DNA of 64,000 nucleotides from Beroe ovata (taxonomy: Eukaryota; Ctenophora; Nuda; Beroida; Beroidae): assembly GCA_946803715.1 (NCBI GenBank), contig CAMPET010000001.1, positions 1,287,845-1,351,844 on the forward strand, in the 5' to 3' direction. Both the position numbers and the translations under genes were made by a program. Under the pieces are notes generated by a model. The model worked only from the letters and a program-made list of their open reading frames with translations. It searched no databases and was not told where the DNA came from. Positions 27,525 through 62,275 of this stretch are shown here, in pieces (positions within the stretch are counted from its first letter, which is position 1; every line of letters starts with the position of its first letter).

Positions 27525-27896
27525 TGCGAGAGCAGCTCTAGAATAATGAGGACCCTTTCTTTTCTTTATCCTAAATAAGTAGTTTCTCACAACACGATGT
27601 GTATGGGAATGTAAGGTAGTTCTAGAAATATGAAAAAAATGATTGTACTGACTCAGAGCAAAATGTCGGGGGTAACTAGAGAGTCGATGTAAACGCAACG
27701 AAAAGTTAACACAACGAAAAGTTAACACGAATTTCGAAGCTCTCAGCCAGATCTTTTCACAACTCTGATTCCGTTAGACACTAAATTTCGGAAAAAAAGA
27801 TTAAGATACAGGCTCAACTTAACCATATTTCGTCACTAAAGCAGTTAGAGATTGCGTGTAGTCATCTTGATCAGGTAGGGAGCACGTGCAGTTTGC

Positions 27897-31133: not shown

Positions 31134-34100
31134 GTCTCTGGTTACATCCTGTCTCTGGCCGAGGTTCTTGACCGGATTAGAGGTTGGGGCCCTCCTGGTG
31201 GGGCCTCTGACAGACCTCTTGGAGGCTAGCATATCGGAGGGCCTGATGGTTAGGTGATCATGAGATTACTAGAGCTTATATCGAGTACAATAGCTTGTCA
31301 ATCAAATTATCAATCTATCAAGAAATTCCGGTGGTGATGGACTATCACTGATCAGTCTCATTTGATAACTTTATTCAGAGTTAAAAACTGAATAACTATG
31401 AGTATGTACATGTCAGATATGTGCGCGATATAACGAAGTCAAACTTAAGGCCTGGGCAGCAATTAATGTTGTGATGAGCGTGATTTGGACCGTTGAGAAA
31501 GACTTTAACATTGTGTATGATGCGTCGGCGAGAAAATTTAGCGTACTCATTACAACACATGTACTCATTACAACACATGAGCTACTTATACTACAACAAT
31601 TATTATAACAGCATTTACTATGAAACTATTAGGAATGAATAATACGATGCCCCAACTGGTGTACACTAGCGGCAGCTGTATCACTCTTTACACGTGTTAT
31701 ACAGGGTTGATAAAGACTAGTGTTGCGCTTTGTGGAAGGTTACATTGGAATTGGGATAATAAAAGATAAATCCTCATAGGTTTCGGGTTCAGTGCCCATT
31801 GATCCATATTCAATAGCATGATGTACAATATACACTCAGATGTATAATGTACAATGTACATTGTGTACTCAAATATTGCACAATGTACATCGTAAATTGT
31901 ATACGGTAATGAAACTGCAAAATCATTGATTGAGATGTAACTCTAATGGCATCACAGTGATCTATAGAGCTATGATAGGTCAAGGACCAAGATATTTGAC
32001 AGAATTGCGAAATATAGGTTAAAATCGAATTTGAAAATTCTGTCGGGGACTGTCATTTGATATGATAGATCAAAGCAAGCAATTTGTCATGTTTGAAGCA
32101 AATATTCAAGTAGGTTTTCAATATGGCAAGATGAGAACTTTCATCGAGTAACCACTTCCGAAGGCGGGCAAAAGCCCGTGATAAATGGAATCAATGGAAC
32201 ATCACAGATATAGGTACCAAAATCTAACACCATGCGGGAGATAACAAAAGCGGAAACTATATTATGTGGACAAACTAAATTCCTTCATGGGGCTGAACTT
32301 TTGTCATGTAGGTACAACAGCAGCAATAAGCAAATACAATGTACATTTCTCACACGTCTTTGTGACGAGATTCAATAACATAACCGGCATTGAGCAGGGG
32401 TATGTATAGTACAAGCAATATACGGTGATTGAATTATATCCCACACAAAAATACTGCTGTGACGTCATATTCAAAGATGGGAGATATGAATTTCAGAATT
32501 CTGGAAGCATGAATTTGTCTGCAAGAATAACCAGATTATAGTAAACTGTGTGCCGCAAGACAGCTCGTAACTGAGGATCACTATAATTCAACAAGCTTCA
32601 GAAATCAGAGCATATCTACATTCTTACATTCTACCTATGCATGAGTGAACTCGACTGCAGCCCATCGAGACGCTCATGTGAAGAAACATGTGGAAGGGTT
32701 TAAGACACAGTTATATACATATTATACGAGCTTTGTTGGGATATAACCGACATTATGTATGACAAGCCATATACGGAATAATTGGAAATGGTCAGGGCTG
32801 AGGTTGATGATCATATGGATCATATGTTCATTAGAATGAGTCATGACACGTCATGAAGCTGAAACTGCAATGGGTTCAATTTTGTAAAAAGCAAAAAGCG
32901 ATGTAACAATATTCACGACTATGAAGTAAATGAACGAAATGGGAATCACCGAATTGATTAAAACAGCCTTATGATGATCGCTATTCTGAATTCTTTGTCA
33001 AAAACTTTGTTAAGCTTAGATCAGTTTTATCATAATGAAGGCTATAATACTAGGATCTGATATACAAGCAAATTTTTGGAATGACCATGAAATTTGTCAG
33101 ATGTAATTACCTATTGCAAAATAGTTATATATCTCATCTTACCTGCTGATTTCCATTCCACCGTCATTCTGGTTGCTTCCACCACCGAACTTATTTCCGA
33201 ATCTGCTTCCAATCTTGCCAACTAGGAAACGAGGTTGATAAAGTTGAGTCATGTAGTTATTCATAATAAAACCATGCCAAAAATTGAAAATCTGTAAGTT
33301 GTAAACATTAGCACCTAAATAGATACGCTTGGTCAACTGATTGATAAGGACAGAATATTCTAGTATTATCAATCCAAAGCCCCCCACACCCCCAGATACC
33401 AAATAATAATCCCAAGTTACCTCCGCGTTTAGGGGGAGCTGAGCTTTCCTGTTGAGCGAAGGGGTTCCTGAGTTTGCCAACCTTTTTCTGGACCGGATTG
33501 GCTGCTTCATTACTCTGGGGAGAAATTAGAGGTGTGAAGGTGGGAAAGTTGGAATGGCAGTATCAAATGCTCCTGCAACCAAGCGATGCATGACCCATTG
33601 TCAACACTGGGAGCTGAGTTTCAAGTAATCCTCTTTCAAGAAAACCCGACAAATAAAACATTCAATGGTGCACGAATGAAAAGCATGTGAAAAGTGCACT
33701 TTGTTCATGGAAAAGTGCAAGTGAAACAAATCTTCCACATCCAATGAATAAAGCCGGTGCTTCATAGCCTCTATACTTGGACTCTCTATTAGCAGTTTTC
33801 ACCTTCCATCCTAGCCAGTAGCCGACTGGCTAGGATGGAAGTAGGCAACCATGGGCTCGAGAAACCAGCCGGTCTATGATCCAAAATTCGGCAGTGATAT
33901 AATCCAATCTCAGATGTATGCTGGAGATATGATGAGCAAAGCGGTGGTTATATGGATATATGGTTAAACTGCTTAAATGCTTTTTCCGTGGTAAGAACAC
34001 AGAATCCGCAGCTCTGAAGATATTAAGCACTACTATAATGTATGAAGGTGCCAGGTAGTGCATGTTTACCAGTTTTTGTTTGGCGTCTAATTGTGGAACA

Positions 34101-37100
34101 TCTGATCGTGACTGCTGAAAATATGAGAGATATGGATATGAAAAACAAGAGTATGAATGAACTAATGAATATGAATGCTGATCTATTATAATTGATGAAG
34201 TGACCGTGATACACACATTTCACAATGGTTCATTCCGGATGACAAATAACAAATCAATATGATACTTGACATGAATCAACTGTTACACATCATTGGCTCC
34301 ACACACTCACATTGACATCAAAACATTGACATTACAACATAATTATAAACGGGATATGATCATGATGACAATATATATAATCCCATGATCAGTTTTGGAC
34401 ATCTGATTTCGGTCACACGATGGCTGTGTTTTCATCAGCTCCCCACTTTTGGAAAAACCATTGTTGATCAGCATATAATCTCTGTGTGTTGTTTGGATCA
34501 CCACGGTAAGGTTACCTGGAGGGACTTAAACACAGAACTACCCAACTTCCCGACCTGGCGCAATTGCTTTGCAGCCACCAGTTTGGCTGCAGCGGCATCC
34601 TTGAAAATTTTGCAGAATCACCAAACAAAATTCATGTTCCCGTAATAAAGAATTCCCCACCATATATATATATAATGAGTTTAGAAGAGAGACATATAAA
34701 TATGGTGTAAGAATGATGGTAGGAAAAGGAAAAAATATCTTCTTGTCTTTAAATCCGAGGCAGAAAATGAAAGGTCAAGATGTGACAATAATTGTGGGCT
34801 TAATAAGTTCTTACCATGCTTTACCTACCTGTCGAAATTAGAAATGCATCTTTTAATAAAACATATTTGGTAAGAGCAAAAAGGAAAGAAGAACTGAGCT
34901 AATTAACCATGAAGACATTTGGATAAACAACCTAAACAATCAGAAGTAGGTACTAGGTATCAACTTACCATAACTATCTGGAGTGAAAAAGAGCAAGAGA
35001 GGAGTAAGTTCAAAGAAGAAAGTGACAGTTATCCCCTCAAATTCAGTGATCATCAAACAAGTTGGAAGGATGAAACAAATAACAACCCTATGACAGGAAA
35101 GAAGAACAGAAGAGAAAGTTCAATCAAAAACAACATGTCATAACAAGAACCTCTTCAGTGTAGAGAGAAGCTCTCTTGCCAAGCTTTCCAACCTTCCTTT
35201 CTTCTTTAGGAGGGGCATCCGAGGTGGTGTCCTTGGGATTTCATAGTCAGAAGAGTATACAGATGGGTTAGAGGAAAGTAGGAGAGTATTCATTGCTGTC
35301 TGCATCTTCAGCCAACTAATTTTAATCCACAGAATACCTACCTATACCGTTCTTTGCTAACTTTTAGATGCAGGATAAATGCTAAAAGTTTACAACCAAC
35401 ATGCTGATTGCTGGGTGTTACTGCTTTGTTGTATGCAGGTTCCTTGTCAACTATTCTAAGTAAACTTTCAGACTATAAAAGATATCAAAGCAGTTGTAGG
35501 TCATAAGAGTAGAAAACTACATACCTACTGGCTACTACATAGAAATTCCTTCTGTAATGCTATTTTTATGCTTACATGGCATCATTGAAAAAAGGTTTCG
35601 TGATATCCATACCTTCTCGAAAAAAGGCATCACGCATAAGCCCTGCATTCCCCCAGAGAACATGTGCTTATCTTTGAAGAGAAAGAGAAAGCAAGAAAAA
35701 GATTGTTCTGGGCCAAAAGCAGTCTTGAGTTTCCTTTACCTGGTTCTTCAACCCAATTTTCCCAAGTTTTCCCACTTTCATTTCTTCCTTTTCAACTTCT
35801 TCCTTTTCTGATTTCAACTCAATTTTTCCAAGTTTACCGACTTTCGGTCCTTCTTTTGGAACTGGTTCGGCCTCGGTAGCCTTGGAATATATAAGATATC
35901 CTGATGGTGACCATTCCCACATGGAGTAAAGATAAGATAAGGAAAGGTGACACAAATAGTAGGTATCAAACCAATCACAACATAATATTGACATTTATTA
36001 TCATCGATCAGGTATTGATAATTGTTCAATTCTTCCGACACTAATTTGATCAAATTCTTGTTTTTGACCCAACTGAAAGGTATAAATCGCAAATTATGAC
36101 CCCTAACATGAAGATTCAAACAATGGAAGACACATCTCACAATACCTTGAACTCAAATTCTCCGAGTTTGCCCACAGATCTTTCGTCTTTTTGGAAGGGC
36201 TCCTCAGTCAATTGCTTGGAGGAAAAAAAGGGATAAATAAATGAAAAACAACCTATTTCGAAAACTGCAATATGTGTACAGGGAGAATAAGAAAGACATT
36301 GAAAGACCATGATCAAAGGGACATTACCTGTATCCTATACCGCACTGAATAGTACATACTATTTGGTTGCTGTGGTTATATACCCAGAGAAGAGGTAAGT
36401 AGTTCGAATATGATTGATTGTTGAAATAATTCTAATCAGAATATTAAAATGTGGGTGAATTAACAAAATAAGAAAGCATCAGGAAGCACGAATAAGGATA
36501 AGTAATGGTAAGTAAGGAAGAGTCAAGGACAACAATGTGATAGACACATACAATATAGCACACATAGTGGTGGCACTTTTGAGTCATGCATTGAATTATC
36601 ATAACATTACACCGATGAGAAGCATTGCAAATTCATGACACTTTTCCCTGAACTTGTAATACTATTCCCCAATGTGAGTGTGTCCATAAGGACATTGGAT
36701 CTCAAAACTTCATCATACAGTGTGCCGAAATTTATTCTCCACTACAATAGTCATACAATAGTCATACTTATGCGTCATACAAGTTAGAAAGAAAGAGAGG
36801 GAATGAAATATTTTGAACAGGAAACTATATCAGGAGTAAATTTTGAAACAAGTTTGATAATGTAGCAGTAAGAAACTTATTCTGGCTACTCAGAAACTAA
36901 TTCTGCAAATAGTAGAAGAAGACTCAAGAGTCATAACGCAATGGAAAAACGGATTCTCTAAGTTTAGAAATCAAGTATAAGATCAAAGGTGGAAAGGTGA
37001 CGGTATTCACTAGTGATAAATAACAAGACATGAAAATATGAAAGGGGCGGTACTAACACCACTCACCTTACCCTCAAAATAGAAGATCATGAAAAGATCG

Positions 37101-39261
37101 AGATCAAATTTCAAAATATGCTGGGGCATCAATTATGGCATGAATGAAGGATGAGCGGCTATACACAATACCCATTCAGGAGATCAAAAATCGGGCTACC
37201 CTTATGAGAAAGAATAATCCTAGAATATTAATTTCATGTGCTTGAAAGACAACAAGATAAGGATCTCACCTCGACTTTGAGCTTTCCGACATCTCTTTTT
37301 TCTTTTTCAGTTTCTGTTTGGAATTCTGGGATCGTGACTTTTCCTGGGAGAAGGATGGTGAAAGGAACTGCATTTTCATCAAATTCTAATAATTGTGTCC
37401 CTCTAACATACGTAAGGGAAGTTTCATGCCTACCCATATTAAGTAACTAGTAACCTTAGTTGTAAACCATACTTAATTGTTTAGTCACTATAATCACAGC
37501 TGTCAGTCTTCCAACAATAGCTAGGGAGGTATAATGCTTACAATATTACCTGTCTACCTATATCTTGTCTGATATGGTGTACTGAGTACTCTCTATTTGT
37601 TTCAGCAATCGTGAAATCATTTGAAACTTATATGAAGATGCCCCTTTTAAACCTGTTTGGTTGTCAGTATCGCACTCATTTCTCCCTTCATCCTGGTTTT
37701 CAGAGGCAGACTCTTGCCTTGAGGTCAAGTACTTGACAAAGACAATAAACAGGGTGGCCGATGTGATGGCTGCCACAATAGAATTGAAGAAAGTGTAGCC
37801 AATAAGTTCCAACACCACCATTGTCCCTTGGCACTACCTATATACACTGCTATATAGCACGAAAAAAATCAAGAGACTATCGACCTTGAAGATGTACAAC
37901 AAAGAGAGTACGTTTAACGAAATGAGAACTTTGCCTGGTCGATCCAATTATAACGTTTGTCTATATGTATGTATGTTCTCACAAAACTCTAAGCTTTATT
38001 ATGGAGAGCAGATCAGTGCAATTTAAAAGTGTTTGCAACTATAAAGCTTGTACATAATAGTTATAGATCAAAACACTCAACATAACAAGTCATCATCATA
38101 CTTATAAATGAGAGTCAGTTGATCTTTCTCACATGTGTATATTTATATCATATTGTGTGAGTCACATCAGAATACGATTATCCAGGATAAGAAATTCTAC
38201 ACCGATCTGAGAGACCTGGCAAGAGAATATTGACTTGACGTATTATACATCACCTATAACAATAGGACTGTCTTATCATGATAAAGCTCTAGAGAATTCG
38301 TATAGTTTTAGAGCACCCGCTATAATGAGTGTCTACTCAGTTCCTATATTGCACTCCGTTTGCAGGTCATTTTGGATAGTTCAATGATAAGGTGTCTTAT
38401 GCATTGAACGCAAGGATTGGAGATCATGAATAATTATAGCCCATATTACGGTTCATGATGCCTATTCTGGAAAATTTAGAAATATCAGCGAATTTATTAA
38501 GTCCTCGGCTCCAAACCATACGATAACGATCCTTAGCTTGAAATTCCTGCAAGGCTGTCATTAGTCATGTGAGAAATCTAAGATAGGTGGCTTTGGTTTC
38601 AGTCGGTATTCATCTCACACAATGGAACGTACAGTGTGCACTGCTCAACCATATATTGCAATAACCTACCTATGGAAGTTACGAGGTTTATTTTGTTCAC
38701 ATCAGCTGTTCTTAATAACTCAACAGTCAACATACTCTGTCGCTATTCAGTCTGAAGAAAACCTCCAACGAATTTGTCTTACGGCTAATGTTCCGCTTGT
38801 CAACAGTTATGAAATTTCAGGTATTACACACCCTGCTTTTGGTTACACTTTTGACTGAATGCTGCATCACCTTCGAAATCTAGTGCCTGAATTCATAGAC
38901 ATTGCAGCTGCCTGCCTGATATGTCACCTTCTAAAGCTATAATGATGCCGTACCTACCTGGCTATTTGCATAATTGCATGTCATACAGCTGTGAGCTGTC
39001 ATAGATTCATTTCATAATCATATGTCATTCAGTCAGCCAATATATTGCCAGCAAATACACTAAAGCTTTGATTCCACCTTCATAATTGAAATAGTCCTCC
39101 TGATGGAATCTGTAGTACCACCAAATATATCATAGCTCCACTATACAATTAGATAATATGCTGCTTCACTTCCATAACACAGTACGATAACACGGACACA
39201 AATGCTGGGTGCTCACCAACTTCCATTCCACCATCGTTACTGAGGACGTCCTTTTTGTGGC
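31134..39261 (-). CDS. C-terminal tail of short exons repeating VGKL
   Basis: Ten small exons encode a charged tail in which VGKL-like motifs recur: RDVGKLKVE (37270-37343), RSVGKLGEFEFK (36146-36214), KVGKLGKIELK and KVGKLGKIGLK (35740-35880), KVGKLGKRASLY (35151-35231), QVGKLGSSVFKS (34516-34599), KKVGKLRNPF (33421-33514) and VGKIGSRFGNKF (33143-33221). NDGGME occurs in 39217-39261 and again in 33143-33221. Exon 31134-31242 is basic (RGPTRRAPTSNPVKNLG). Phases run 1, 1, 0 through to 0, 1, 2, 0 without conflict. The long gap 39262-43678 could hide further exons. Confidence 0.7.
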
Positions 39262-42200: not shown

Positions 42201-45200
42201 TGTAGATCATTCATCCCAGGTAGAAACCAGTCAATAGTGTGAAGAATGAAGATGGTATCAATCCATGCAGTAAAACCAAAGTGATCAAGACATTGAAAAT
42301 GCTACCTACTTATCGAAGTAGAATTATCAACTGGGGTAGAAGATAAGAGGAAATGTACATTGTACAGTCATATTGTATTGAATGATCGAATGTACGTTGT
42401 AACATATTATGCATTGTGCATGTTTTACTACCGTACAATAACAATAAACCATGGCATCACTACTCACTGTAATATTTCAGAGCAAACAATTTAGGTTCAT
42501 AACTGACTATGTCTATAGCTTCCAGTAATGCTTCAACTGTTGCTATGGTTTCGTGCACATGTCACGTGATCAGTCTTGATAGCTTAACGCAATGAAATGT
42601 TTTGAAAGTAATAGTACAAGTTAATGATAATGTAGTGGTTTTATTAAATCATAGAGGTGTGGCTGACTGAGTACATGCCATGCAGCAACAGTTCCACCAT
42701 AATATCTTATCGATGCTAGATTGTAAAATAGACAACCATATCATACTATTATTGTCTGTGAGACTTTTCGGCTCCAGTTTGTCTTAATTTATCTATGACG
42801 CTATTTTGGATGACTTTATCATAACCAACTTAAGCATTTGAGTGAAATAACGGATATCAGCTGGCTTCAGGTGCATTGAAAAGGAAGTGATCCACGGAAA
42901 TGGGCAAATAGCCAAAATATGTACATAATATTAAGTTCACATAATATGAGAGTATTGTGTCAGGGTACTGTGATGTCGAGGTTCTTAAATTAACTGAACT
43001 TGAGGATGATGGAACAGCACATGGGTATGATATAAGTACCTACTACACCTACCTAGCATAGGTACATCCAAATTTTGAACCAACTGATGCTAGGATCGAT
43101 GTGAAATGATTCTAGAGCTGGAATGGCAGATTGATGCTCGCACAAAGTCCGAAACGGTTGACGACAAATTATGAGACGATATCTAAATTTGGAGTCCATA
43201 TCCATATCCATATTATCAATCATTGACGACACATCAATCCAACCTATCGAACACGTAAGCAGAAATCGGCAATTGATGCTAGAATTATTCTAAAATTTCA
43301 GCAAGATTTCCTCAGGTAGTGCAGCGTCCCATGTCAGAGAGGGGATCTAGTTTTCTGAAATATCTCATGCTTTGAATCAGTCTTACAATCTCACATATAA
43401 CATAATCACCAAACAGATGATATAATAACGTGCTTCATCATGCAGATTGCAGAATTGCATCATCAGAGTGTTAATTCTTATTAATGGTTACATAATGAAC
43501 TAGTTTCTGAACATAAACTATGATAATAGTAAAGGATATTTATAGTAAGATAAGGCATGAAGATAGTCATATCAAGTTCATTTTCAAAGCCCAAAATTCA
43601 GGCAGACATTTTTGTCCCAAAAAGGAGATAAGACTTCAAAGTTCAAACACGGATCATGATGACCTATTTTTCACAAACCTGGTCCTCCATTAGCAGCTGC
43701 AGCTTGATTCTTCTGGAACTGGTTCCACTGAGCTTCATTGAGCTTGAAGGTCATCTTGCCAGACTTATCAGTGGTAGGTTTAACCTTGATACCGGCGAAT
43801 GATGGCTTAAGGAGTTTGTACTGGGCTAGAGTACATGATAGAACGTAGAATCCACCTATGGAATCATGGATTAGTACATGGGTCAAACCATACACTGGAG
43901 CCCTAATCTATAGCAGTTATGGATTACTTTTCAACTGATACCGCATTCAATACACTTACTTTCGTCCACAGACACAGCAATCTGTTCTCCATCTGAGGGA
44001 GCCTCACTGGCTGGCTGTGGCTGGGCTGGACCCTTGGCCTGATTTTCCTGGAAGATCGCCCACTGGGCAGCAGTGAGAACGATTGAGTAGCTGCCATCAG
44101 CCTGTGGCTGAGGTGCGGGGCTGAGGGTAATTCCAGAAAAGCTGTTGTTCATCTGGATCATAGACCACATGGGTGCAGGGATGTGCAGCTGATAGTCGCC
44201 ACCTTGGGGTTATTGATGATGTGAAACGGAAAAAGTGGTACTGCCTAAGTGATACTGATAGCTAAGATGAATATTATCTTCATTGGCAGTTCAACGCACT
44301 AGCAAGGAGAGACACGGAGATGCTATCGTCTCCTGGCGTGTTGATCTTTTCCTGATTGGCCTTGAATCGAACCATCTCAGCTTCAGTCATGTAGAGAACA
44401 TACACTCCACCGTCCATCTTGGGGTTCACAGAGATACCCTCAAATCCCCCACTGCTCTTCAGTGTCTCAAATTGAGAAACATGGAACTTGAGGACATATC
44501 TTCCACCTAAAATTGAAATATCATTTACTGTTCTAGGAAATGCTCTAAAAATGTTCCAACAATGGTCGAGGATATTCGATCAAATTTCCTTGTTGAATGA
44601 GGAACATACTGGCATCTTTGGTAATAGGGAAGTCTTCTCCAGGGCCAGTTTGAGCAGGAGCCGGGTTCTTCTGGTTATCCTGGAATATCTGCCACTCGGC
44701 TGGAGTCAATTTCACGTTGTAGCTTCCATCGGGGTTAGCAGATGGGGCTGGACTGAGCTTGATACCTCTGAATCCATCATTGGCTTGAACAATCGTCCAA
44801 AGTCCAGCAGGAATTCGGAGAATAAAGTTTCCACCTTGGCAAAAAAATGATAAATTAACACACATAAAACTTAAAGGTTTGTTATTAAATCAGGAAATGA
44901 TGAAATTTTTGCAGTGATTCCCCATCTTGTTATTGTAAACATACTAGCATCAGTAGTTGCGGTGATGTTATCGTTGTCAACGGCAGGCTGTGGGGCTGCT
45001 TGTTCTGGAGCGGCCTGGGCAGGAGCTGGGTTCTTCTGGTTGTCTTGGAAGGTCTGCCACTGGGCTGGAGTTAGTTTCACAGTGTAGCTTCCATCGGGGT
45101 TAACAGATGGGGCTGGAGAGAGGGTAATACCCCTGAATCCATCATTGGCTTGAACGATCTTATAGATTCCAGCAGGGATTCGAAGTATGAAGTTACCACC

Positions 45201-51200: not shown

Positions 51201-54200
51201 GAGTCTGGTGCATACCGGAGAGCGATCATGTCAAATGCACCCAGACGCTTCAAAACCTCAAATTGATCCGCTTGTACAGTCAATGTATATGAACCCTCTT
51301 TGGGGAAATAAGGTGCTTCACGACCATGCTTTCAATTTCTAATAACATATTGAAAGATTGATGGAAACATGCTTTGGTTGAATAAATCAAATGACCGTCT
51401 TAGTTGGACAATATACTTTGGTGAGATAATGGGTAAATAAGAAACATTTAAAGATTAATGTAAAGGAATTTTCTCATAATAGTTCATTAATCACATGACA
51501 GTCGATTGAGAAATTTGACTTGATAAATATCTCAACAGAATATTTGTCCTAACTGAACGGTAAAAAGACAGTGAATGAATGGAATTTTACTGATGATATA
51601 TGCAATCATCCTGATATCAATATTCTGAACGATGTTTGAGTTTCGTCATCAATACCAGTAACTGGAATCAATCATAGATATTTGATTGAAGCAGCAGTTG
51701 CTGATGTTGAAGACGCTTAGATTTGTGAACAACAAGAGTAATATGGACATGATATTTTACCTGGTGTCTGCTGTGCCATGATGGTATGCATAATGGTACG
51801 GGTGTAGTGCACCCTCATGTTGTACTGCAATTTGACCCACTGGTCGGGCAGCATCAAGACCAACATCTTGCCATCTTCAGGTCTTCGAGTGACAGTGAAA
51901 GTCAAGTCTTTCATGGCAGGATTAGATTTCATTGCCTCCAACTGATCCGGTGTAAGCACAAGTTGATACTCACCGCCTTGTAGGATAGTAAGTAACACTA
52001 CCATGCACTAGAAGTAACTCATGGGAGTGTGCATGAATTTGGTGCGATGAAAGTACATGCTTTAGGTAGCATTCCTAGGTTGCAGTATCATGGATAGTGT
52101 GGCTGCTCAGAAACACGAAGATTGATCGATATTATCTTTTTGAAGATGATATTCCTTAACGAGCAGCCACCCTATCTACTATGCTGTTTTGCTTTAACTT
52201 AAACAAGATTGCGGTGGTTCACCTATACTCCTGACAATCATTTGCGTTCTCTCATCACCAGTGTTTAATGCATGGGATTCAAAAGGTCTGCAGTGACCAT
52301 ATGCCTGGGAAAATGTGTGCATTTCTCAATCAGTTTAATTACCTGGGGTGACAGTGATACTATCACTAGAAACTCCTTCTGGAAGGAGAGCATCTGCAGG
52401 GGCTACCTCTCCCGGTGCTGATTTCACATCATCTGGGGAAGGCAGGAGTCAATTGGATATAAAATATTCATAAGCAAAGGAGTTCTGTCAATGATCTCTC
52501 TTCATAACTCTCAAGAGTAATGGAAACTGCATTTTATCATGATCTAGCTCGGATTTCTGGCAATAAGATGTTACAAGAGGTAGGTTACGTCTGAATGATC
52601 ATGATACCTATCACAAAACGATGCAACGCTTATTAATCCAGTCATCCTAATTTACTGATTAGCGACGGATTGCATGTACCTATCTATAACATCTCAGGTT
52701 ACCTATCATAGATTGGAACGGCAGCTAATTGGACTCAACATGCATCCAAATCATCATATTGTAGTAATCAGGCGAACTTATGAGAATACAAACATGCGCG
52801 CAAATAAGAGATATAATCCAACCTGCGTCACCATCTTTTTTAGGCCAACCCTTCAATATCTTTTTCAGTTGGGCCTCAGGGGTGAGAGGTAAAGGTTTGT
52901 TTACAGGTACTGCTGTGGTTTCGAGGATGGTATCAGGGGGAGCCTCTAGCTCGATAGCACTTTCATACTGCAGGTCATCGGCTTCAAGATCTATGACAAG
53001 GTCTCCAGTACCAAACTCGGAGAGATCAAACTCAGAATAAGTTTCAGAGGCTGCACATTCATCAGCATCTTTCCTTTCATCATCAGGAACGTCAGGGGCT
53101 GGAGTGGCGGATTTTATAGGAAGCAGACAACTAAAAATCAGCGAGATGGGCTACACATTTATTACACAAAGCATCTAGGCTGAAACGCCTCAAAGAAAGG
53201 TAACTTTTATTTTGCAAAGAATCAAGAAAATTGAGACGAAAAACGAAAATGAAAATGGCTGTGAGTAGAATTATAAGACCGTTTCTCCCTAGTTCCATAG
53301 TCTGGAACTGCTAATGAAAAGATGCGTCTTCGGGTCTATACTTTGATATGGGACTGGGGAGTAACAAGAGCTATAGCAAGATTCTATTGACCAAATTTCA
53401 CTGGTAGGAAACGAAATGAAACTTAAATTAAATGAAACTTAAGTTGATGTATTGAAACAAGATGTCAATCGTGTCATTCTGATCCACGATGACTATCTAC
53501 ACTAGAGCAGGCAGCTCTTAGGTACCTCCAACCGTTTCATTTTATCTTTAGTTTGCATGATCAATACACATTTAATAAGGTGGAGAAAAAGAATTCGATT
53601 CCTCCATAATTTTGGTTATATGATTGAACAAAAATCATGTTCAAAGATAGCTTTTAAAGAAGAAATGGTTCTCCCTAAATATTCAACCACGATCATAAAT
53701 TTTTTACAACCCTTAATCCTTATATCCTTGCTATTGATATAGGTAATATAAGTAGCATTATTGATGTTTTATGACTCCTCTGAGCCCATGCTGTTTCAGC
53801 AAGAAGCTTGCTAACTGATTTCTGACAACAAAGCAAAATCGGTAAGTTCTATGCAACTATGAATAATAAAGATATAAAAGGCCAAGTAAAACGGTTCCAA
53901 TGTAAATCAAACTGCTCTGCAGTCAACATTTGAGACAAAAAATTGGGGCAAAGCAACACAAACTTTAGACGAGTGCATAATCAGAACAACTCTAACATAA
54001 CTCTAGCATTGCTGCGACTATCCTATATAACTTGTTCCTGCAGAAGAACTTACTAAATTTCGCAAGGTGGATAATTAATCTTGGCATTTCGATAGAAATC
54101 TGGCACATGACAACCCATTGAGTTTAAAGTTGACAGATCCGACAACAAAAGGCAACTATCAAGTATGCATTTCGCAATTACATGAGGAAGACATGCATTT

Positions 54201-57200
54201 TGCTTAACCTTATTCAACATTTCTCAAAAGCATGCAGGAAACAATCAGTCAATCAGTGATAGATCACAGTAAAGAACTGCTATCAGACGTACCTATTAAC
54301 CTGTTGATAAGTTAAAACAGCTCAATCGATCTAGAACTCAATATACCTACAATCCATAGAAGGGTAGGCATCAATGATACTAAAAGGGTCTATGTTGCAG
54401 GAAACTAACCGAAACCAATTCAGCCAGAATTTTATATTTGAGTGGAAGAGGATCGAGGTTAAATATTGAGGTAGAACTTAACTAAGAAGGGCTTTTTCAT
54501 GCAGGAAATGATTTGGCTTTTTCACATTGAAATCAGAGACCCAAACATAAAGTTGAAATGCTTCCCGCGATTTTGTCTTGGTTGATTCAACTACGATTAT
54601 CAGATCAATCCTGATTAAAGGCTGGAATTTGTGATCATACCTTTGTTAGCTTCATCTGCCTTCTCTTTCTCTTCAGCAGCATTCTTCTCCTCTTCCAACT
54701 TCTTTCTTTCTGCTGCCTTCTTAGCTTCTTCGTTAGCCTTTTTCTTAGCTTCAGCTTCAGCTTTCAGTTTTGCCTCCTCTTCTGCTTTCTTCTGTTCTTC
54801 TGCTGCCTTCTTCTTCTCTTCTAATTTTTTCTTCGCCTCTTCCACCTTTTTCTTTTTGTCCTCTTCAGCCTTCTTTTTTGCCTCTTCTTCAGCTTTAAGC
54901 TTGGCCTCTTCCTCTGCCTTCTTCTTAGCGTCGGCCTCTGCCTTTTTCTTGGCCTCTTCATCAGCCTTTTTCTTGGCCTCCTCTTCAGCCTTTTTCTTAG
55001 CTTCGGCCTCTGCCTTTTTCTTAGCCTCTTCATCAGCCTTTTTCTTAGCCTCCTCTTCAGCTTTCTTCTTTGCTTCGGCCTCTGCCTTTTTCTTGGACNA
55101 TCAGCCTTTTTCTTGGCCTCCTCTTCAGCTTTCTTCTTTGCTTCGGCCTCTGCCTTTTTCTTGGCCTCTTCATCAGCCTTTTTCTTCTCTTCAGCAGCCT
55201 TCCTCTTCTCTTCCATCTTCTTTTTGGCTTCCTCTAATTTCTTCTGCTTTTCCTCTTCTGCCTTCTTCTTAGCTTCTTCTTCAGCCCTCTTCTTTGTTTC
55301 AGCCTCAGCCTTTTTCTTAGCTTCTTCATCAGCCTTTTTCTTTGCCTCTTCATCAGCCTGTTTCCTTGCCTCTTCAGCCTTCTTCTTGGCTTCTTCCTCT
55401 GCCTTCTTCTTAGCCTCTTCTTCAGCTGCCTTCTTCTTTTCCTCTAATTTCTTCTTAGCTTCTTCAACCTTATTTTTCTTGTCATCCTCAGCTTTCTTCT
55501 TTGCTTCTTCATCAGCTTTCTTTTTGGCTTCCTCTTCCTTTTTCTTCTCTTCTGCTGCTTTCTTCTTTTCTTCCATTTTCTTCCTTGCTTCTTCTATCTT
55601 TTTTTCTTGAGCCTTCTTTTTCTCCTCGTCGGCCTTTTTCTTATCATCAGCAGCTTTCTCCCACGGCTTTTTGGGCTTGGCTGGTGCAGCTTTAGGTTCT
55701 TCAGACTTCTTTTCATCTGGCTTTTTCTTTTCTGTAAATGACAAAAACAGATTAACTTAAATTGTGTATTTATGATGAGACGAAATGTGCAAATGACAAA
55801 TATCTAAGCCAAATCTCAGTAAGTGGATAATGAAAACATGAACATGTACTTACCTTCAGGAGCATCAAGGCTTTCAACGTTGACTTGGCCATTTTCAAAC
55901 TTAAGGTTGAAGTACAAAGGTTGTTTGGTTCCTTTAGGGGTCAATTTAAGCTTGATCAGCTCTGGATCACCACTTGAGTTGCACCTGAAAATAAATTAAG
56001 ATGTTGTCGTCGACCTTGGTCTTGATAATGGACAATGGACACGTCATGCTTGATGATAATTAACTTCAGACAGTAAGCATACTTGTAATTCTCAACATCA
56101 ACTTCAGCTTTGCCATCAGAGGTAGGTGTGCAATTTTCTGGAGTCATTTTCAGAACAACTTCACATGGGTTTGGATCATCTGGTGAAAGCTTGAACTTGA
56201 CAACCATGCTTTGTTCCGCCACAGACTGAATTCCTACTTTTCCGACTTTAGCTGCCTGAAAAATGTATGTTGTCAGCTGAATCCCATACCTATGAATTGA
56301 AGGATGAAAAGCAATGAGCATTGATTAAGGTATTCATGTCACTGAATCAATAGCACTCACATCAGCAGGAACATCTTCTTGCTCCACAGAAAGTTGTCCA
56401 TCAACAAAGCGAAGAACAAAGAAAATCCCATCAGAACCATCAGTTGGATTGAGACGAAGGCGGATGTATTCGGGCTCCCCACTTGGCAAAGGCTTGAAAT
56501 CGACCACCTCAGCAGATGCCTGTTTATCTCCTTTAGCAGCGCACTCATTTCCTAGAATGCCAATACTGACAACACATGGTTCCTTAGCTGGATCAAGATT
56601 GAATCTTACCACCAATTCTTGTTCAGTTGGTTGAGCTGGTTCAGAGGGTTTGGGTGCTTTTTCGGGCTGATCCTGCTTGATATTCAGTTTACCATCTTCC
56701 ATTGTACATGTGAAATTTAGGACAGGCAGTTTTTTGTCCTTGGGAGTTAGCTCAAGTTGAATTTCAGTTGGTTCTCCTTTGTCATCGAATTTAGAGCTCT
56801 TAACCTTAACATCAGCCTTGTCATCACTTGAAGCAGTGAGTTTGCCTTCTTTGATGTTCATTTTAACTTGGCACGGTTCCTTATCTGTTGGTGAGAGGTG
56901 GAAGTTAACAACCAGTTCATCAACGCCAGATGGCTTAGATTCTTCAGAGGGCTTAGAATCTTTCGGTTGCTTGGGCTTCTCAGCAGGCATTGTCAATAAT
57001 AATGAACCATCAGGAGCCTTCTTCTGAGGTACAAGTTGTCCGCCATGTTCTATGCTAACGAGTTCAATGGTGTCGTTACAGATCCTGAAACCAAGGAAAA
57101 GTGGCTGGTCACACTCTTTTGGTTGAGCAGATATCTTTAGTAACTCAATATCATTTTTCTCAGTCTTGATAACTTGTACAACCTTCACTTCTGTGTCATC

Positions 57201-60200
57201 GTCAGTAGTGACCTTAGGCTCCCCCTTTCCATAGTTTATCTTGACGTCATGTTTCTTGTTGTCATGAAGGTTTACAGAAATAATTGCCTCCTTAACTCGC
57301 TTTTCTTTTGGAGTAAGCTTTTTAGTTATAGGATCGATATCAGTGGCAATTGTGGTTATTTTCTTAGGCTCAACATCAGATGCACTTATACTCAATACAC
57401 CATCTTTAATGTCAAATGCAAACTTAAGAGGAGATCTCTTTCCTTGGGGAGTAAATTGCATGAATATTTTGGAAGGCTTGCCATTGCCATCTTTCTCCAC
57501 TTTGTCCAGCTTCACTCTCCCATCTCGTGGATTTGCAACATCTACCTTCACTTTGTCCCCATCTATGTTGATTTTAAGGGTAGAAGGTTCCTTAGAAGCA
57601 GGGCTTGCATAGAAGTTGACTAGGATATTCTGTGGACTATCCAAGTTGATCTTAGAAACGTTTCTCTTGAGCGACTCAACAAGTGGTTCAGGCAGTTCAA
57701 GTCCAGGGAAGTCAATCTCACCGAGTTCAATACACTCCAACACAGCCAGTTGACCACTTTCAGGCAAGTCTTTCAAAAACTTTTCTTTGCCAGTAAGGCC
57801 CTCAACTTTCTTGCTAGCAGGTTTTTCATCACTGGGCTCTTCTAGAGGCTTCTTTTCTTGAGGTTTCTTTTCCTCAGGCTTTTTCTCCTCTGGCTTCTTT
57901 GCTTCAGGTTTTTTATCCTCAGGCTTCTTTTCATCAGGCTTTTTCTCCACAGGTTTCTTTTCTTCTGGCTTTTTCTCAGCTGCTTTCTTTTTCTCTTCCA
58001 TTTTTTTCTTGGCTTCAGCAATTTTTTTCTCTTGTGCCGCCTTTTTCTCTTCCTCTGCCTTCTTCTTATCATCTTCAGCCTTCTTCTTGACTTCTTCATC
58101 AGCCTTCTTCTTCTCTTCAGCAGCCTTTCGCTTTTCCTCCATCTTTTTTTTAGCTTCCTCAATACGTTTCTCTTTGTCTGTCAGGGCAGGCTTGTCATCA
58201 CCAGTCTTTTCTGGAGCGGCTTCTTTCGGTGCTTCTGGGGCAGCTTCTTTTGGTGCTTCTGGGGCAGCTTCTTTCGGTGCTTCTGAGGCAGCTTCTTTTG
58301 GTGCTTCTGGGGCAGCTTCTTTTGGTGCTTCTGGGGCAGCTTCTTTTGGTGCCTTTTCCTCTGCAGGCTTGACAGCCTCTTGCACAACTGGAGCAGCATC
58401 CTCGACAACAGGCTTTATATCACTCTCAACTATGGGAACTTCAGATGATTCTGTCTCGGGTACATCTCCCTCCACAACAGTGGGGGCAACACTCTCAACT
58501 TCATCCTTTACCACTGGTTCTATGGTTGGGAGTGCTTCTTCTGCAGGCAAATCAGCTGATACTACTTCGGAAGCAGGCTCGACTTTCTCCACTGGCTCAG
58601 CTGGCGTCACATGGGGTTTGGCGGGTACATCTTCTGAAGTGGGTGCCTTATGAGATGGAGCAACTGAGTCGTCTACCACAGTTGGAAGATCAGAGACGGG
58701 CGAGGGAGCTGATTTGGGAGCAGATCCAGACATTTTTGGAGAGCTATCAACTGGAGTGTAGTCACGAGGTTTACTTTCGTAGGTTGAAGGGGTAGCGTCT
58801 CGTGGCTTACTTTCGTAGGTTGAAGGGGAAGCGTCTCGTGGCTTACTATCATATGTTGAGGGGGTGTAGTCACGTGGCTTGCTATCATATGTTGAGGGGG
58901 TGTAGTCACGTGGCTTGCTATCATAGGTTGAGGGGGTGTAGTCACTTGGCTTGCTATCATATGTTGAAGGGGTGAAGGTTTTCTTGGTTGTAGTTGACGA
59001 TGAATAATCACGAGTTGACGAAGAGTAATCTTTGGGCTTGTAGTCAGTAGTAGTGGAAGTGTATTCCGTGGGCTTGTAGTCAGAAGATGTTGAAGAGTAG
59101 TTTTGAGTGTTGGTCGTAGTTCTGTAATCCATTGGTTTTGATTCTCGAGTGGTTGTTGTAGTTATCTTGTAGGACGTGTCAGTTGAAGGGGCGTGGGATA
59201 TGGTTTGTCCAGATCTTGAGTAGATTGTTGAGTACTTTGAGGAGCTAGGAGTATAGCTACGCGGACTGACAGAAGAGTATGATCCTGATCTTGTGGTACA
59301 TGCGCTGTAATCCTGTGATGGTCTAACAGTTGTTACACACACAGGACCAAGACCACCCTTGAACTCAATGGGTTGCTTGCGCTCATACCCTTTGCCTTGC
59401 GTGGAGGAGTCGCTGGTATTGGCACCAATCCCAGAGGCGAGACCATACCTATCAGCAGCAGAAGACATGCCGTGAGAGTATCTAGGCTCCCCATAAAGAC
59501 CGGAGAACGAAGATCGTCGCTTGTAGGTGGTGGATGTCGAAGCTGTGCCGGTCGTGAAGGTGTCATCAATCGGTGTGGATCCATAACCAGTTCGATAGCT
59601 GTAGTCACCAGATGCTGAAAATATGGTTGGCAGTTATGAAAAAAATGTTGTACATTCTTATGATTGTGAACTAGAACAAAAAGTTGAGAAATTTATAAAA
59701 GCCCAGAGAATAGAATGAGAAGAAATGCCCATGATAAGAAATAGATCATGACCAGAAACAAGTTTTATTGATCAATAGTCAGAACTTTTTCAGATGATAA
59801 GCTGATCAATAAGTTAACTCCAGGGAACAGATTTATACTAGTCAAAACCAGAAGAAACTAACCGTTCCTGTGATATATTATACCCCAATTAAATTGTCAA
59901 AAACGGGAATCTGCTGAAAAAGACCATTTTGAACCCAAAAACATGCTGATCTCAATACTGGTGTAAAGAGGGACAAGAATATAAGACACAAGGTAAAGAA
60001 CAAGACAAAGAGACACTGATCTACTATAGAGACAATTAATGATCCCCATCACAAACCAGATGCGCTCCTCTGACGAGTATGTAGCCAGGGCATGCTGTCA
60101 TCGTAGTAAGTCGAGTATCTTGAGATGGCTCGATCATCCATGGCAACCCTCTTCGGTCCTTCTCCATGGGTGAAGAAATACCTATCGTAGAGATACCTCG

Positions 60201-62275
60201 CGTAGGTGTCTTGATCGCTTTCCGAATGACGCTGGCGTTGACCACCGGTAAAGTATTCCAAGCTCAGTGGCCTCCTGAAGTACCTCTCTGAAAGCCACCT
60301 CTGTTCGGGACCCGAGAGGTTGACATTCGTATGGTATACGTGGTGGTAATCCACTGGTGTGATCTTGTTGGTAGCTCGTCGCCAGGGTGGCAGTGCCAGG
60401 AGAATTCGCTCTGCGTCAAGAGTTCCATCACCGCTGGGGATAATGTACTCCTTCTTAAACTCTCCCTTAACCTCGCTTGACCCACTCTTCTTGGCGTATT
60501 CCGAGGGACTGAGACCTCCTGGTAAATTGTAGGACTTTTCCACCACAGCTTGGGAAGCCAGGTCTGTGTATCCGAAGATGGAAGCTCTGGCAGCACGCTC
60601 CTCCGCAGAGATTTCGCCTCCGGTCGCTCCCCCGGCATAGCCAGTTCCGGCAGTGACCTCGACAGTTCTTCTCTTACCTAGACCGGGCTACGTTAGGAAA
60701 ACCTGGACTCTCTCTTCCCAACTATAGAGAGAGCCTTAGGAACAATTATCAACTCATAGGGTACGACAAACATGGCACAAACAGTGATAACACATGCGAC
60801 ATCTTAATATAGGCAATATTTGTGCCATGCTTACAGCGCAGCAATGTATAAGCATAGCTTCAAACAATAGACAATTCCGAAAAAACCACACTCGTTATTC
60901 ATTCATTTTTGACACTTATACATCTTTTCATTCAGCTCCATGGTCACAGTGGCTATAATTAATGACTCACTGTTTCTCTGAGGGAATCCTTCATCAGTTT
61001 TCGTGTTGTAAGTTGAGGAACCATACGATCTTCTGAACCGGTAATTGGAGCCTGGTGGGGCAATGACTGGAGAAACAGGTACATACCTATTACCTACGGT
61101 GAGTTCATTAAAAACAAGCTCAAGGGACTCTTACTGGTATCGACAACGGATCCCGGTGTGTAAACATAGTCAGATCTCAGTCGTCGCATGTACCACCTGA
61201 ATAAAGTTAGTATGTACCAAATAGCACATTGCAAAGCAACATTCATGTTGTTGCTAAGCAACATTGACATTGTTGCTAGGTAACTGCGACTCACTTCTCC
61301 GGTTCGTAGTCTCTTGGCTCGTGAGCGAAGGCGTACTTGCTGTGTACAGCTCCCCCAGAGTACCTAGTCCGGAAATCACTTGTAGAGCTGTTCAGTCCGG
61401 AAGAGTAACTCCTGGGGGGAGGAAAGTGAGGAGTTGAACCCGATACACATGACCAGATGGGTAATATTATATCAGGACACAGATCTATAGACCTGAGATT
61501 CATATCACAATGCTTGGGACTCATTGAAGGAAATTGACCACCATTATCATACGATCATAGATTATATACGATCATAGAAACTGTGTTGGATGAGGATATC
61601 ATGTGAGAGGTATATGAGTGCTACACTTACGTTGAAGATACAGGCACGTAGCCGGATCCCCCAGCTGAGGAGGATGAGTATCGTGTCTCGTAGATACCAG
61701 ACCTGTTGGCGCCCACGGGGCCGAACCCGACGTAGTTAACCTAAAGACGGGGAGCAGTGGCGTCAATGATGATGGCACTCTGCCAACCATTGCCATGCCA
61801 ACAGTTGAAGTAGCGGGTATGATAGTGAGATGTAATACCTTAGCATTGCGGGAAACATTTACTGGGTTAGCCTCGAAGTAGCCGCTCCTATGAACGTGTG
61901 TGCTGACATGTCTCTCCGGCCGGTAGAAATTGATCTGAAGTGGAGTAAACACGTGGAGTAAACACATGAAGTGGACACCAGAATTAGCTGACACCAATGT
62001 GAGTTATCGACCACTGATAGAATTGGTAGGAATAATATGGGGGAAGAGAAGATCGGATATCATTCGACATGACTATTGACTACTATATAAGCCATGACAA
62101 TTGCTGAATATCACGTGATTGTTGGATACCACCACGTGACTGGTGTCAATGATACCAGTCACGTGGTGGTACCCTATCTTACTACCTTCTTGAAGGTGTA
62201 GTGGTGTACTTCTGGTGTTATGTAGGAACACAGTCCGTACTTGTTGAGGATGTTGTCTGTCCTCGAGTCAGTCAT
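31134..62275 (-). CDS. Large unrecognised modular protein gene, about 41 exons
   Basis: Exons, all with matching phases: 62186-62275 (ATG 62275), 61839-61934, 61631-61740, 61295-61411, 61135-61196, 60971-61066, 60057-60677, 56361-59614, 56083-56255, 55854-55984, 54641-55731, 52823-53098, 52343-52432, 51761-51976, 51127-51297, 50430-50534, 50184-50300, 49800-50045, 49194-49445, 48444-48683, 48089-48328, 47371-47679, 46663-46902, 46322-46561, 45981-46220, 45526-45771, 44945-45199, 44610-44834, 44300-44506, 43960-44202, 43679-43855, 39217-39261, 37270-37343, 36146-36214, 35740-35880, 35151-35231, 34516-34599, 34070-34114, 33421-33514, 33143-33221, 31134-31242. Roughly 3,660 residues. I see no signal peptide, catalytic motif or known domain. 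The layout (head, two Lys/Glu helices, tandem beta-rich repeats, short-motif tail) suggests a structural scaffold. The stop codon is uncertain. Confidence 0.8.
33803..33841. repeat. Perfect 17-base hairpin
   Basis: CTTCCATCCTAGCCAGT (33803-33819), loop AGCCG, then the exact reverse complement (33825-33841). It is intronic, between exons 34070-34114 and 33421-33514 of the large gene. Confidence 0.9.
37558..37821 (-). CDS. Small membrane-anchor ORF or alternative first exon
   Basis: ATG at 37819-37821 opens an 87-residue frame with one hydrophobic helix (about residues 7-32, including FFNSIVAAITSATLFIVFV) and then a polar Ser/Glu/Asp-rich stretch. TATATAG-like boxes lie about 20-35 bases upstream. 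An internal donor (ACAG|GTTTAA) leaves in phase 1, which fits the acceptor of exon 37270-37343. It could therefore be an alternative first exon giving a membrane-tethered VGKL tail. It may equally be a stand-alone small gene or a chance frame. Confidence 0.4.
   Translation of the reverse strand: MVVLELIGYTFFNSIVAAITSATLFIVFVKYLTSRQESASENQDEGRNECDTDNQTGLKGASSYKFQMISRLLKQIESTQYTISDKI
39262..43678. other. Long intron, or undetected exons
   Basis: No convincing exon is seen between the last B module and the tail. The flanking phases are compatible, so it may be one 4.4-kb intron. It contains the 41908-41978 foldback and short direct repeats at 40450-40507 and 40911-40938. Confidence 0.5.
41908..41978. 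repeat. 33-base-arm foldback hairpin
   Basis: Left arm 41908-41940 and right arm 41946-41978 are reverse complements with about four mismatches. The inner 13 bases (GGCTGGCAGGTTC) are perfect and the loop is GAATT. It is intronic. The GGTTCGAATT core resembles a tRNA T-arm but no cloverleaf surrounds it. Confidence 0.85.
43679..51976 (-). repeat. Array of seventeen B modules on symmetric phase-1 exons
   Basis: Each module is about 55-100 residues. It pairs two similar half-repeats: GGNFILRIPAGLW followed by VQANDGFRGI, then NPDGSYTVKLTP followed by QWQTFQDNQKNP. A Pro/Ala/Gln linker and an acidic end (DDENITAATDPS) follow. Most exons are 225-255 bases; 47371-47679 is longer, with a PQSAPQSAPQ linker. 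All enter and leave in phase 1, usually splitting a Ser codon (A|GT). One module is divided over exons 50430-50534 and 50184-50300. The first two (51761-51976, 51127-51297) and last three (44300-44506, 43960-44202, 43679-43855) are the most divergent. No family is recognised. Confidence 0.85.
46219..46671. repeat. Recent tandem duplication of exon plus intron
   Basis: The introns after exon 46322-46561 and after exon 46663-46902 are near-copies (CTAAAGATAGTTACTGATGA, AACATGAGCAATAACACATG, AATCAATAATCATCTCACTG) offset by about 341 bases. Non-coding sequence is conserved along with the exons, which marks a young duplication. Confidence 0.85.
52093..52176. repeat. Foldback with partly paired interior
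   Basis: GATAGTGTGGCTGCTC (52093-52108) pairs with GAGCAGCCACCCTATC (52161-52176) with one mismatch. The roughly 50-base interior can pair further. The size resembles a microRNA precursor. It is intronic in the large gene. Confidence 0.6.
52343..53098 (-). CDS. Acidic linker exons
   Basis: Exons 52823-53098 and 52343-52432 encode an acidic, unstructured-looking linker (for example EFGTGDLVIDLEADDLQY) between the Lys/Ala/Glu helix and the first B module. The acceptor at 53098 was chosen because its phase fits exon 54641-55731. An upstream AG (about 53133) gives the wrong phase unless another exon exists. Confidence 0.65.
54641..55731 (-). CDS. Lys/Ala/Glu long-helix exon with a one-N gap
   Basis: This exon encodes about 360 residues made of EEAKKKAEEEAKKKADEE and EEKKKAAEEKKK variants. 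That is the composition of a single alpha helix or coiled-coil rod. The reading frame is broken at the N at 55099: flanking repeats imply about ten missing bases (expected CTTGGCCTCTTCATCAG, seen CTTGGAC-N-ATCAG), so I read this as an assembly collapse and not a mutation. Entry follows TTTACAG; exit is AAAG|GTATGA, phase 1. Confidence 0.85.
55854..57640 (-). repeat. Five tandem copies of beta-rich repeat A
   Basis: Each copy is about 90-100 residues: V-x-F-x-L-[SD]-P with a following PC (for example VVNFHLSPTDKEPCQV, VVRFNLDPAKEPCVV, VVKFKLSPDDPNPCEV), a Lys/Asp-rich middle, then I-x-L-x-L-T-P or equivalent, and a closing strand ending in DGKLNI / DGQLSV / NGQVNV. Four copies lie in exon 56361-59614. 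The fifth is split over exons 56083-56255 and 55854-55984. Copy 2 (about 57060-57300) is the most diverged. The alternating pattern predicts a beta sandwich. I do not recognise the family. Confidence 0.75.
56361..59614 (-). CDS. 3.25-kb exon: tandem repeats, Lys/Glu helix, four A repeats
   Basis: One 1,084-codon exon. In order it holds a Ser/Thr/Tyr-rich region; at least six copies of a 12-residue unit (YTPSTYDSKPRD and variants, about 58750-58975); an acidic Val/Pro/Glu region; six copies of EAPKEAAP (58205-58352); a Lys/Glu/Ala helix with KPEEKKP repeats (about 57840-58200); and four copies of the beta-rich A repeat (about 56365-57640). The entry codon is split A+GCT..., and the exit is the phase-0 donor GAT|GTGAGT. 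The Ser/Phe-rich plus-strand frames opposite it are shadows. Confidence 0.85.
60057..62275 (-). CDS. N-terminal Tyr/Arg-rich head (seven exons)
   Basis: Start ATG at 62273-62275 opens MTDSRTDNILNKYGLC. Exons follow with RPERHVSTHVHRSGYF, VNYVGFGPVGANRSG, SDFRTRYSGG and RRLRSDYVYTPGS, then a 621-base exon with KSYNLPGGLSPSEYAKK, ERYFRRPLSLEYF and RYLYDRYFFTHGEGPKR. The block is rich in Tyr, Arg, Ser and Gly with no membrane segment. The polypyrimidine-rich CTATTATAG about 30 bases before the ATG could be a 5' UTR acceptor. Every internal exon obeys phase. The 60057 donor (GTTTGT) and the 60677 acceptor are weaker than the rest. Confidence 0.75.
62127..62171. repeat. Perfect 18-base hairpin beside the first donor
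   Basis: TACCACCACGTGACTGGT (62127-62144) and its exact reverse complement (62154-62171) are separated by nine bases. Each arm contains a CACGTG E-box. In the minus-strand transcript the hairpin begins about 14 bases after the first exon's 5' splice site. Confidence 0.9.

Follow-up and report, generated by a model that had tools for sequence, protein, structure and literature searches.

The myosin II-binding sequence of mammalian supervillin is located at or close to an extensive disordered region; archvillin, the muscle isoform, has additional sequence at its N-terminus and is found together with dystrophin at the sarcolemma (consulted part of PMC6192639). Most ctenophore muscle is described as smooth, and giant fibres are described for Beroida (consulted part of PMC3502136). 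Connectitin has been reported to be absent from ctenophores (PMC12198301, partial text), which raises the question of what large proteins organise ctenophore muscle and cortex. We found no literature pairing ctenophores with supervillin. A search on supervillin and sponges showed nothing relevant in the titles and beginnings of abstracts of the papers listed, and the word supervillin is absent from the main text of PMC10282587, PMC10280926, PMC3502136, and PMC8527503.

The window, the whole stretch of DNA analysed here, comprises 64,000 nucleotides of the Beroe ovata genome and has a G+C content of 36 to 47%, except for one stretch of 33%. Four published ctenophore assemblies measure 92–156 Mb at 37–43% G+C (PMC11184263); the assembly containing the window is smaller. 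The glutamate receptors of the genome point to a ctenophore: the ligand-binding domains of two of them match chain ML032222a, a Mnemiopsis leidyi protein, at 225 and 196 bits and chain 4zdm, a Pleurobrachia receptor, at 171 and 153 bits, and all further chains among the best 60 (of 318 and of 321) score at most 92 bits. A glass sponge origin was considered and rejected, since the genome has Wnt genes (9 matches) and innexins (14 matches), and PMC10280926, on O. minuta, reports that glass sponges lack the former and sponges the latter. A search for COX1 gave no match. Its minus strand holds a block of modular exons running from 62275 to 31134, which is probably the 5′ part of one giant supervillin-type gene whose product would be an actin-anchored, extensible scaffold or tether. 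We favor one gene over an orphan because the last exon of the block (V8) carries a supervillin linker, colinear exons follow downstream, and a headpiece lies at their end. As modelled, the gene extends from about 62275 to 5434 on the minus strand, some 57 kb, with about 4,200 residues in the modelled exons. Its likeness to supervillin sequences makes the identity of the gene well supported, and we infer a single transcript that would join the N-terminal modules to the gelsolin part.

A simple splice and codon model gave most of the exons of the 5′ block, and relaxed passes supplied the rest. The exons have AG/GT borders with matching phases and form a stop-free model of 39 exons and 3588 codons (1747 + 1841). 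A single assembly N at 55099 interrupts the long K/E helix and coincides with a change of open frame, and the exon concerned (K) was therefore written as two pieces around it. The encoded protein starts with a Ser/Tyr/Thr-rich head, followed by a 69-aa K/E helix, a 56-aa EKKP stretch, five A modules, a long K/E stretch, an acidic spacer, seventeen B modules, eight VGK[L/I] motifs, and an exon with a splice donor at 31134. All features are listed in Table 1.

Much of this architecture had already been described in a reading of the letters alone (hereafter the sequence-only reading), which counted about 41 exons and 3,660 residues; its agreement of phases holds, with the counts now 39 exons and 3588 codons. 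Both Lys/Glu helices (69 aa and about 363 aa) and all five A repeats (85–88 aa each) were recovered, as were the seventeen B modules, which occupy 18 exons since B3 is split. The VGKL tail is also present, as seven VGKL motifs by DNA pattern and one VGKI in V7. The same reading treated 31134 as the end of an unrecognised gene, and neither point is supported: the last exon matches the supervillin linker (20.8 bits), gelsolin-like exons and a headpiece lie downstream, and with a splice donor at 31134 the gene most likely continues for about 26 kb.

Table 1. Modelled features of the giant supervillin-type gene and its surroundings, in order along the minus strand (positions within the window)
Feature	Positions	Strand	Remarks
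Exon N1	62241..62275	-	likely start codon (inferred), MTDSRTDNILN
Exon N2	61863..61887	-	short, uncertain
Exon N3	61631..61740	-	phase/border model
Exon N4	61295..61411	-	phase/border model
Exon N5	61135..61196	-	phase/border model
Exon N6	60971..61051	-	phase/border model
Exon N7	60057..60677	-	phase/border model
Exon A1	56361..59614	-	head with KP[RS]D and APKEAAPE repeats, first K/E helix, EKKP stretch, A modules I-IV; relatives P0001, P0002
First K/E helix	57975..58181	-	69 aa
EKKP-repeat stretch	57807..57974	-	56 aa
A module I	57366..57629	-	
A module II	57036..57290	-	
A module III	56658..56921	-	AlphaFold2 pLDDT 88.7, seven strands
A module IV	56367..56624	-	
Exon A2, first part of A module V	56083..56255	-	P0001 reads through at A1/A2 border
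Exon A3, second part of A module V	55854..55984	-	
Exon K, long K/E helix	54641..55731	-	helix 55729-54641, about 363 aa read; N at 55099 and frame change
Exon C1, acidic spacer	52823..53098	-	phase/border model
Exon C2, spacer	52343..52432	-	phase/border model
B module 1	51761..51976	-	
B module 2	51127..51297	-	
B module 3, first exon	50430..50534	-	
B module 3, second exon	50184..50300	-	
B module 4	49800..50045	-	
B module 5	49194..49445	-	
B module 6	48444..48683	-	
B module 7	48089..48328	-	AlphaFold2 pLDDT 82.1
B module 8	47371..47679	-	
B module 9	46663..46902	-	
B module 10	46322..46561	-	
B module 11	45981..46220	-	
B module 12	45526..45771	-	
B module 13	44945..45199	-	
B module 14	44610..44834	-	
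B module 15	44300..44506	-	
B module 16	43960..44202	-	groups with P0014, P0016
B module 17	43679..43855	-	groups with P0019, P0020, P0021
Exon V1, VGKL	37270..37343	-	B17-V1 join by phase alone, across 6.3 kb
Exon V2, VGKL	36146..36214	-	
Exon V3, two VGKL	35740..35880	-	
Exon V4, VGKL	35151..35231	-	weak splice sites
Exon V5, VGKL	34516..34599	-	
Exon V6, VGKL	33421..33514	-	
Exon V7, VGKI	33143..33221	-	
Exon V8, supervillin pre-gelsolin linker	31134..31242	-	linker profile match
Possible alternative 5′ exon or part of nested gene	26900..27536	-	phase-0 donor at 26900, as V8
Candidate exon linking V8 to gelsolin part	20615..20669	-	phase 0 to 1
Supervillin exon leading into first gelsolin-like repeat	14444..14590	-	
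Gelsolin-like exon	12794..13047	-	5′ border uncertain
Gelsolin-like exon	10724..10897	-	
Supervillin exon, EKFKDWPD	9996..10070	-	
Predicted exon	9207..9344	-	
Gelsolin-like exons	7892..8231	-	two exons, 8231-8155 and 8028-7892
Gelsolin-like exon	7705..7782	-	
Predicted gelsolin-like exon	6984..7152	-	
Supervillin exons (RAPEV..PFLQSDLYNN; VYVWVGWWP)	5926..6361	-	borders approximate
Exon with start of headpiece region, DPLKLEQYL	5650..5814	-	
Last exon, villin headpiece end and stop codon	5434..5520	-	PF02209

The assignment of V8 rests on a profile of the conserved basic NPLK linker that precedes the first gelsolin repeat, built from three named supervillins only. Among the 3281 open reading frames of the window, V8 was the best match to this profile (20.8 bits, E 4.9e-5), and the runner-up scored 5.0 bits. 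When V8 was joined to a candidate exon at 20669–20615, to the exon at 14590–14444, and to the next one, the 163-residue composite matched the snail, skate, and bear supervillins at 73 (73.2 for the snail), 69, and 66 bits, respectively. These alignments cross the V8 junction with 9 to 11 gap columns in all, and the phases agree. The exact VGKL motif occurs in none of nine named supervillins, of which the snail protein (P0003) has one VGRL, and a looser pattern matched one of seven tested (the skate protein, P0004).

Further downstream, the gelsolin-like repeats were detected by PF00626 in three stretches (E 1.4e-18) and by gelsolin chains among solved sequences (E 1.3e-28). The villin headpiece scored 33.5 bits with PF02209 (cut-off 27; profile positions 8–36 of 36) and is one of seven such matches in the genome. 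Of 59 solved sequences listed at E ≤ 0.1, supervillin 2k6m (E 0.0043) is the one that has its best stretch in the headpiece. DUF7904 (PF25480), which is annotated in most of the named supervillin matches, was marginal at 30.3 bits against a cut-off of 30. A database search with a 2308-residue composite query scored the 7998 candidates with the most words in common and yielded 11 proteins: two unnamed relatives of the A region and nine named proteins, all of them supervillins, which cover 20% of the composite. Three named supervillins searched by tblastn matched between 13051 and 5437. In the assembly of 77.8 Mb and 534 contigs, the C-terminal half of the snail supervillin found six places, four within the window, one on contig C67, which encodes gelsolin repeats and a headpiece, and one on contig C158.

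Two long unnamed database proteins are related to the A region, namely P0001 (46% identity, E 4e-193) and P0002 (41%, E 4e-157). P0001 continues past the A1/A2 border and then resumes in the following A exon. A single A module searched across the genome gave four matches, all in this locus, which is a lower bound for a single-sequence search. The long K/E stretch contains 158 E–K pairs at i,i+4, whereas 500 shuffles of it gave 73.6 ± 6.6, and a period of 8 is the strongest; this is the pattern of single-alpha-helix rods. The EKKP stretch is reminiscent of the PEVK region of titin.

The B modules are coding and under purifying selection, with a dN/dS of 0.03 to 0.24 in 25 of 28 pairs drawn from eight of the seventeen modules; the other three pairs were saturated. 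All 18 B exons are of class 1-1, and the starts of B9, B10, and B11 are spaced 341 bp apart. The 100 bp on the 3′ side of B9 and B10 are 91% identical (about 52% for shuffles of the downstream flank), and the 60 bp on the 5′ side of B10 and B11 are 87% identical. Some of the duplications are recent enough for the introns to be still alike, and the suggestion of the sequence-only reading that the gene grew by exon duplication is supported by the shared exon class and these flanks.

Relatives of the B modules were found in 10 unnamed proteins among 431 candidates (E ≤ 0.01), which brings the relatives of A and B in other sequences to twelve unnamed proteins in all. Genome searches with one B module (13 matches) and with B17 (8 matches) found copies in this locus only, both counts being lower bounds. 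In a FastTree tree of the B modules and their relatives (76 columns), B16 is joined by P0014 and P0016 (support 0.96) and B17 by P0019, P0020, and P0021 (0.995), while B5 to B14 form a group of their own without any outside sequence (0.98). Based on this grouping, the last B modules look older than the split of the lineages, and the central ones look to have expanded in this lineage.

The sequence-only reading had held that the parts match no family it knew, and had proposed profile searches and Foldseek for A and B separately. For single modules these searches gave no convincing family or fold, which supports that part of the claim; the whole B array, on the other hand, passes the cut-off of a known family, and the last exon is a supervillin linker. 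Fifteen A sequences compared one by one with Pfam (E ≤ 10) touched ten families, none convincingly (best E 0.06). The best match of A among solved-structure profiles was the designed chain scIg12 (E 0.0014), which we take as a likeness of idealised beta strands and not as domain identity. B gave nothing below E 0.5 with such profiles, and AlphaFold2 models of A and B, compared by Foldseek and VIA-align, gave weak, generic matches only.

The spliced 1841-residue piece matched seven Pfam families at E ≤ 1, of which three were above their cut-offs: CarboxypepD_reg (PF13620) at 93.6 bits, CarbopepD_reg_2 at 57.8, and MBG at 55.2. CarboxypepD_reg is an Ig-like beta domain, from a family often found in secreted proteins. 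Its match to the B array (cut-off 32.3) appears to be a sum over copies: four stretches pass alone at E ≤ 1, the best of them 43 residues long, and the family was absent from all 26 single B modules and relatives at E ≤ 10. At that threshold the 26 sequences instead gave MBG in six (best E 0.021), DUF4106 in two (best E 0.025), ToxA_barrel in one (E 7.6e-4, which we attribute to chance), and four other families once each (E ≥ 0.084). The model of a single B module has two helices, and an Ig-like fold would clash with its predicted alpha/beta fold. We read the match as a short DGSY-type strand motif (the DGSYTVKL region) summed over the copies, which would not imply membership in the family. 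The Pfam scans leave the odds of the supervillin reading unchanged, because the main claim rests elsewhere.

The intron that follows V8 is at least 10 kb long. It harbors, on the opposite strand, a 470-aa open frame (24514–25926, plus strand) that resembles a seven-helix, GPCR-like receptor (PF10316, E 4.5e-4, below the cut-off). On the same strand as the gene, a 311-aa open frame (27773–26841) may be where a short supervillin isoform begins, or may belong to another gene. A short tandem repeat at 29269–29600 (minus strand), with WCQSGVVS-like peptides, is probably a minisatellite. Overlapping frames on both strands at 19700–20300, with similar repeated peptides (GLLSE, SDNSP), are perhaps a short inverted-repeat element. 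Near the start of the window, at about 1249–1542 on the plus strand, lies an open reading frame piece that we take to resemble a type I inositol polyphosphate 5-phosphatase.

A single supervillin gene could also have two promoters, with the giant form beginning near 62 kb as a minor product and a short conventional isoform beginning in the exon at 27.5 kb. The donor of that exon shares phase 0 with V8, which speaks for such an arrangement. Its frame, however, has no match to the fetched supervillins (blastp, E ≤ 1) or, for the part 27536–26841, to Pfam (E ≤ 0.1), and it may be an unrelated nested gene; we judge this arrangement somewhat unlikely. The same frame figures in a reading that we consider unlikely, in which the locus is divided between two genes: a giant orphan scaffold gene that stops around B17 or V8, and an ordinary supervillin starting at V8 or with the frame at 27.5 kb, whose piece 27536–26900 with its phase-0 donor could be a supervillin first exon. 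Only a few codons beyond their donors, B17 and V8 both meet a stop, which would allow either exon to be the end of a protein of its own. None of 2289 scored candidates of 1974 to 6280 aa matched the B–VGKL part at E ≤ 0.001, and so none of them is a full-length giant relative that joins the parts. Against a division into two genes, V8 carries the supervillin linker and joins the upstream exons in phase. The three B17 relatives, P0019, P0020, and P0021, share a glycine at the donor position and diverge beyond it (judged by eye), as expected if B17 is spliced onward. The long intron with its nested frames also speaks for two genes, and is a weak objection to a single one because nested intronic genes are common in the ctenophore Hormiphora (consulted part of PMC8527503).

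More distant readings concern the nature of the product. The sequence-only reading had left room for either a cytoskeletal or a matrix-type scaffold specific to the lineage. Modules encoded by class 1-1 exons are common in extracellular proteins, and together with the repeat-summed CarboxypepD_reg match they would fit an extracellular matrix protein built from new modules. Judged by eye, the predicted N-terminus is nevertheless hydrophilic and the modules contain few cysteines, and the protein includes a K/E helix and an actin-binding C-terminal part, which makes a matrix protein highly improbable and leaves the lineage-restricted scaffold of cytoskeletal type. Least credible of all is a pseudogene or misassembly, as might be read from the N and frame change at 55099; the low dN/dS, the relatives in other sequences, and the 3588 otherwise open codons all argue against it.

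One supervillin-type gene is therefore the reading that we carry forward, and from its parts we propose how the product might work. The headpiece and gelsolin-like part would hold actin and the cell cortex, as in other supervillins, and the K/E stretch is predicted from sequence to be a single-alpha-helix rod of some stiffness. Together with the EKKP stretch, the A and B modules and their Pro/Gln-rich acidic linkers may provide a long, extensible spacer in which binding sites recur, and the head and VGKL motifs may dock partners. We infer these spring, rod, and docking roles from composition and repeats. The whole protein would then link actin to membrane or contractile structures as a long tether or scaffold, with its actin/cortex end C-terminal, and by our estimate it could span more than 100 nm with folded modules and linkers. 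A titin-like role is possible because ctenophore muscle is mostly smooth (PMC3502136) and connectitin is reported absent (PMC12198301), as far as the consulted parts of both sources go. In its strongest form, which we think less likely than not, comb jellies would have independently built a giant elastic, actin-anchored filament by extending a supervillin N-terminus with a pair of novel domain families, a long single-alpha-helix rod, and a spring of EKKP repeats, for a titin-like job in smooth muscle or cortex. Such a supervillin, giant and with two module families that seem to be unclassified, is a testable candidate for a long structural tether in ctenophores, and would represent a known actin organiser that enlarged its N-terminal region by exon duplication.

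The comparison with titin and connectitin concerns giant size, repeated modules, and the EKKP stretch, and is one of possible working only. Ig, FN3, and kinase families did not appear in Pfam scans of eight pieces of the giant gene, of the 1841-residue piece, A module V, and the first 350 residues, or of 26 B and 15 A sequences singly. Villin and gelsolin families share the gelsolin repeats, and villin also the headpiece, but the linker and all named relatives found belong to supervillin. The second supervillin of this genome, on contig C158, has a weak linker match (12.1 bits) and gelsolin-like pieces and a headpiece akin to those of named supervillins; no A, B, or VGKL match was found in the 31 kb of it that were analysed at E ≤ 0.001, and its 5′ end may be cut by the contig end. 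Supervillin/archvillin (SVIL) itself is matched in the pre-gelsolin linker, the gelsolin-like repeats, a marginal DUF7904, the C-terminal headpiece, and a long low-complexity N-terminal region. By analogy with the mammalian proteins, the end enlarged here is the one where the myosin II-binding sequence and the extra archvillin sequence lie. The ctenophore gene differs from SVIL in having about 3,550 residues before the linker, where it carries A and B modules, VGKL motifs, and a long K/E helix. Great length is no novelty in itself, as P0003 from the snail reaches 3280 residues and has about 2,400 ahead of its linker; the novelty is the content of the N-terminal part.
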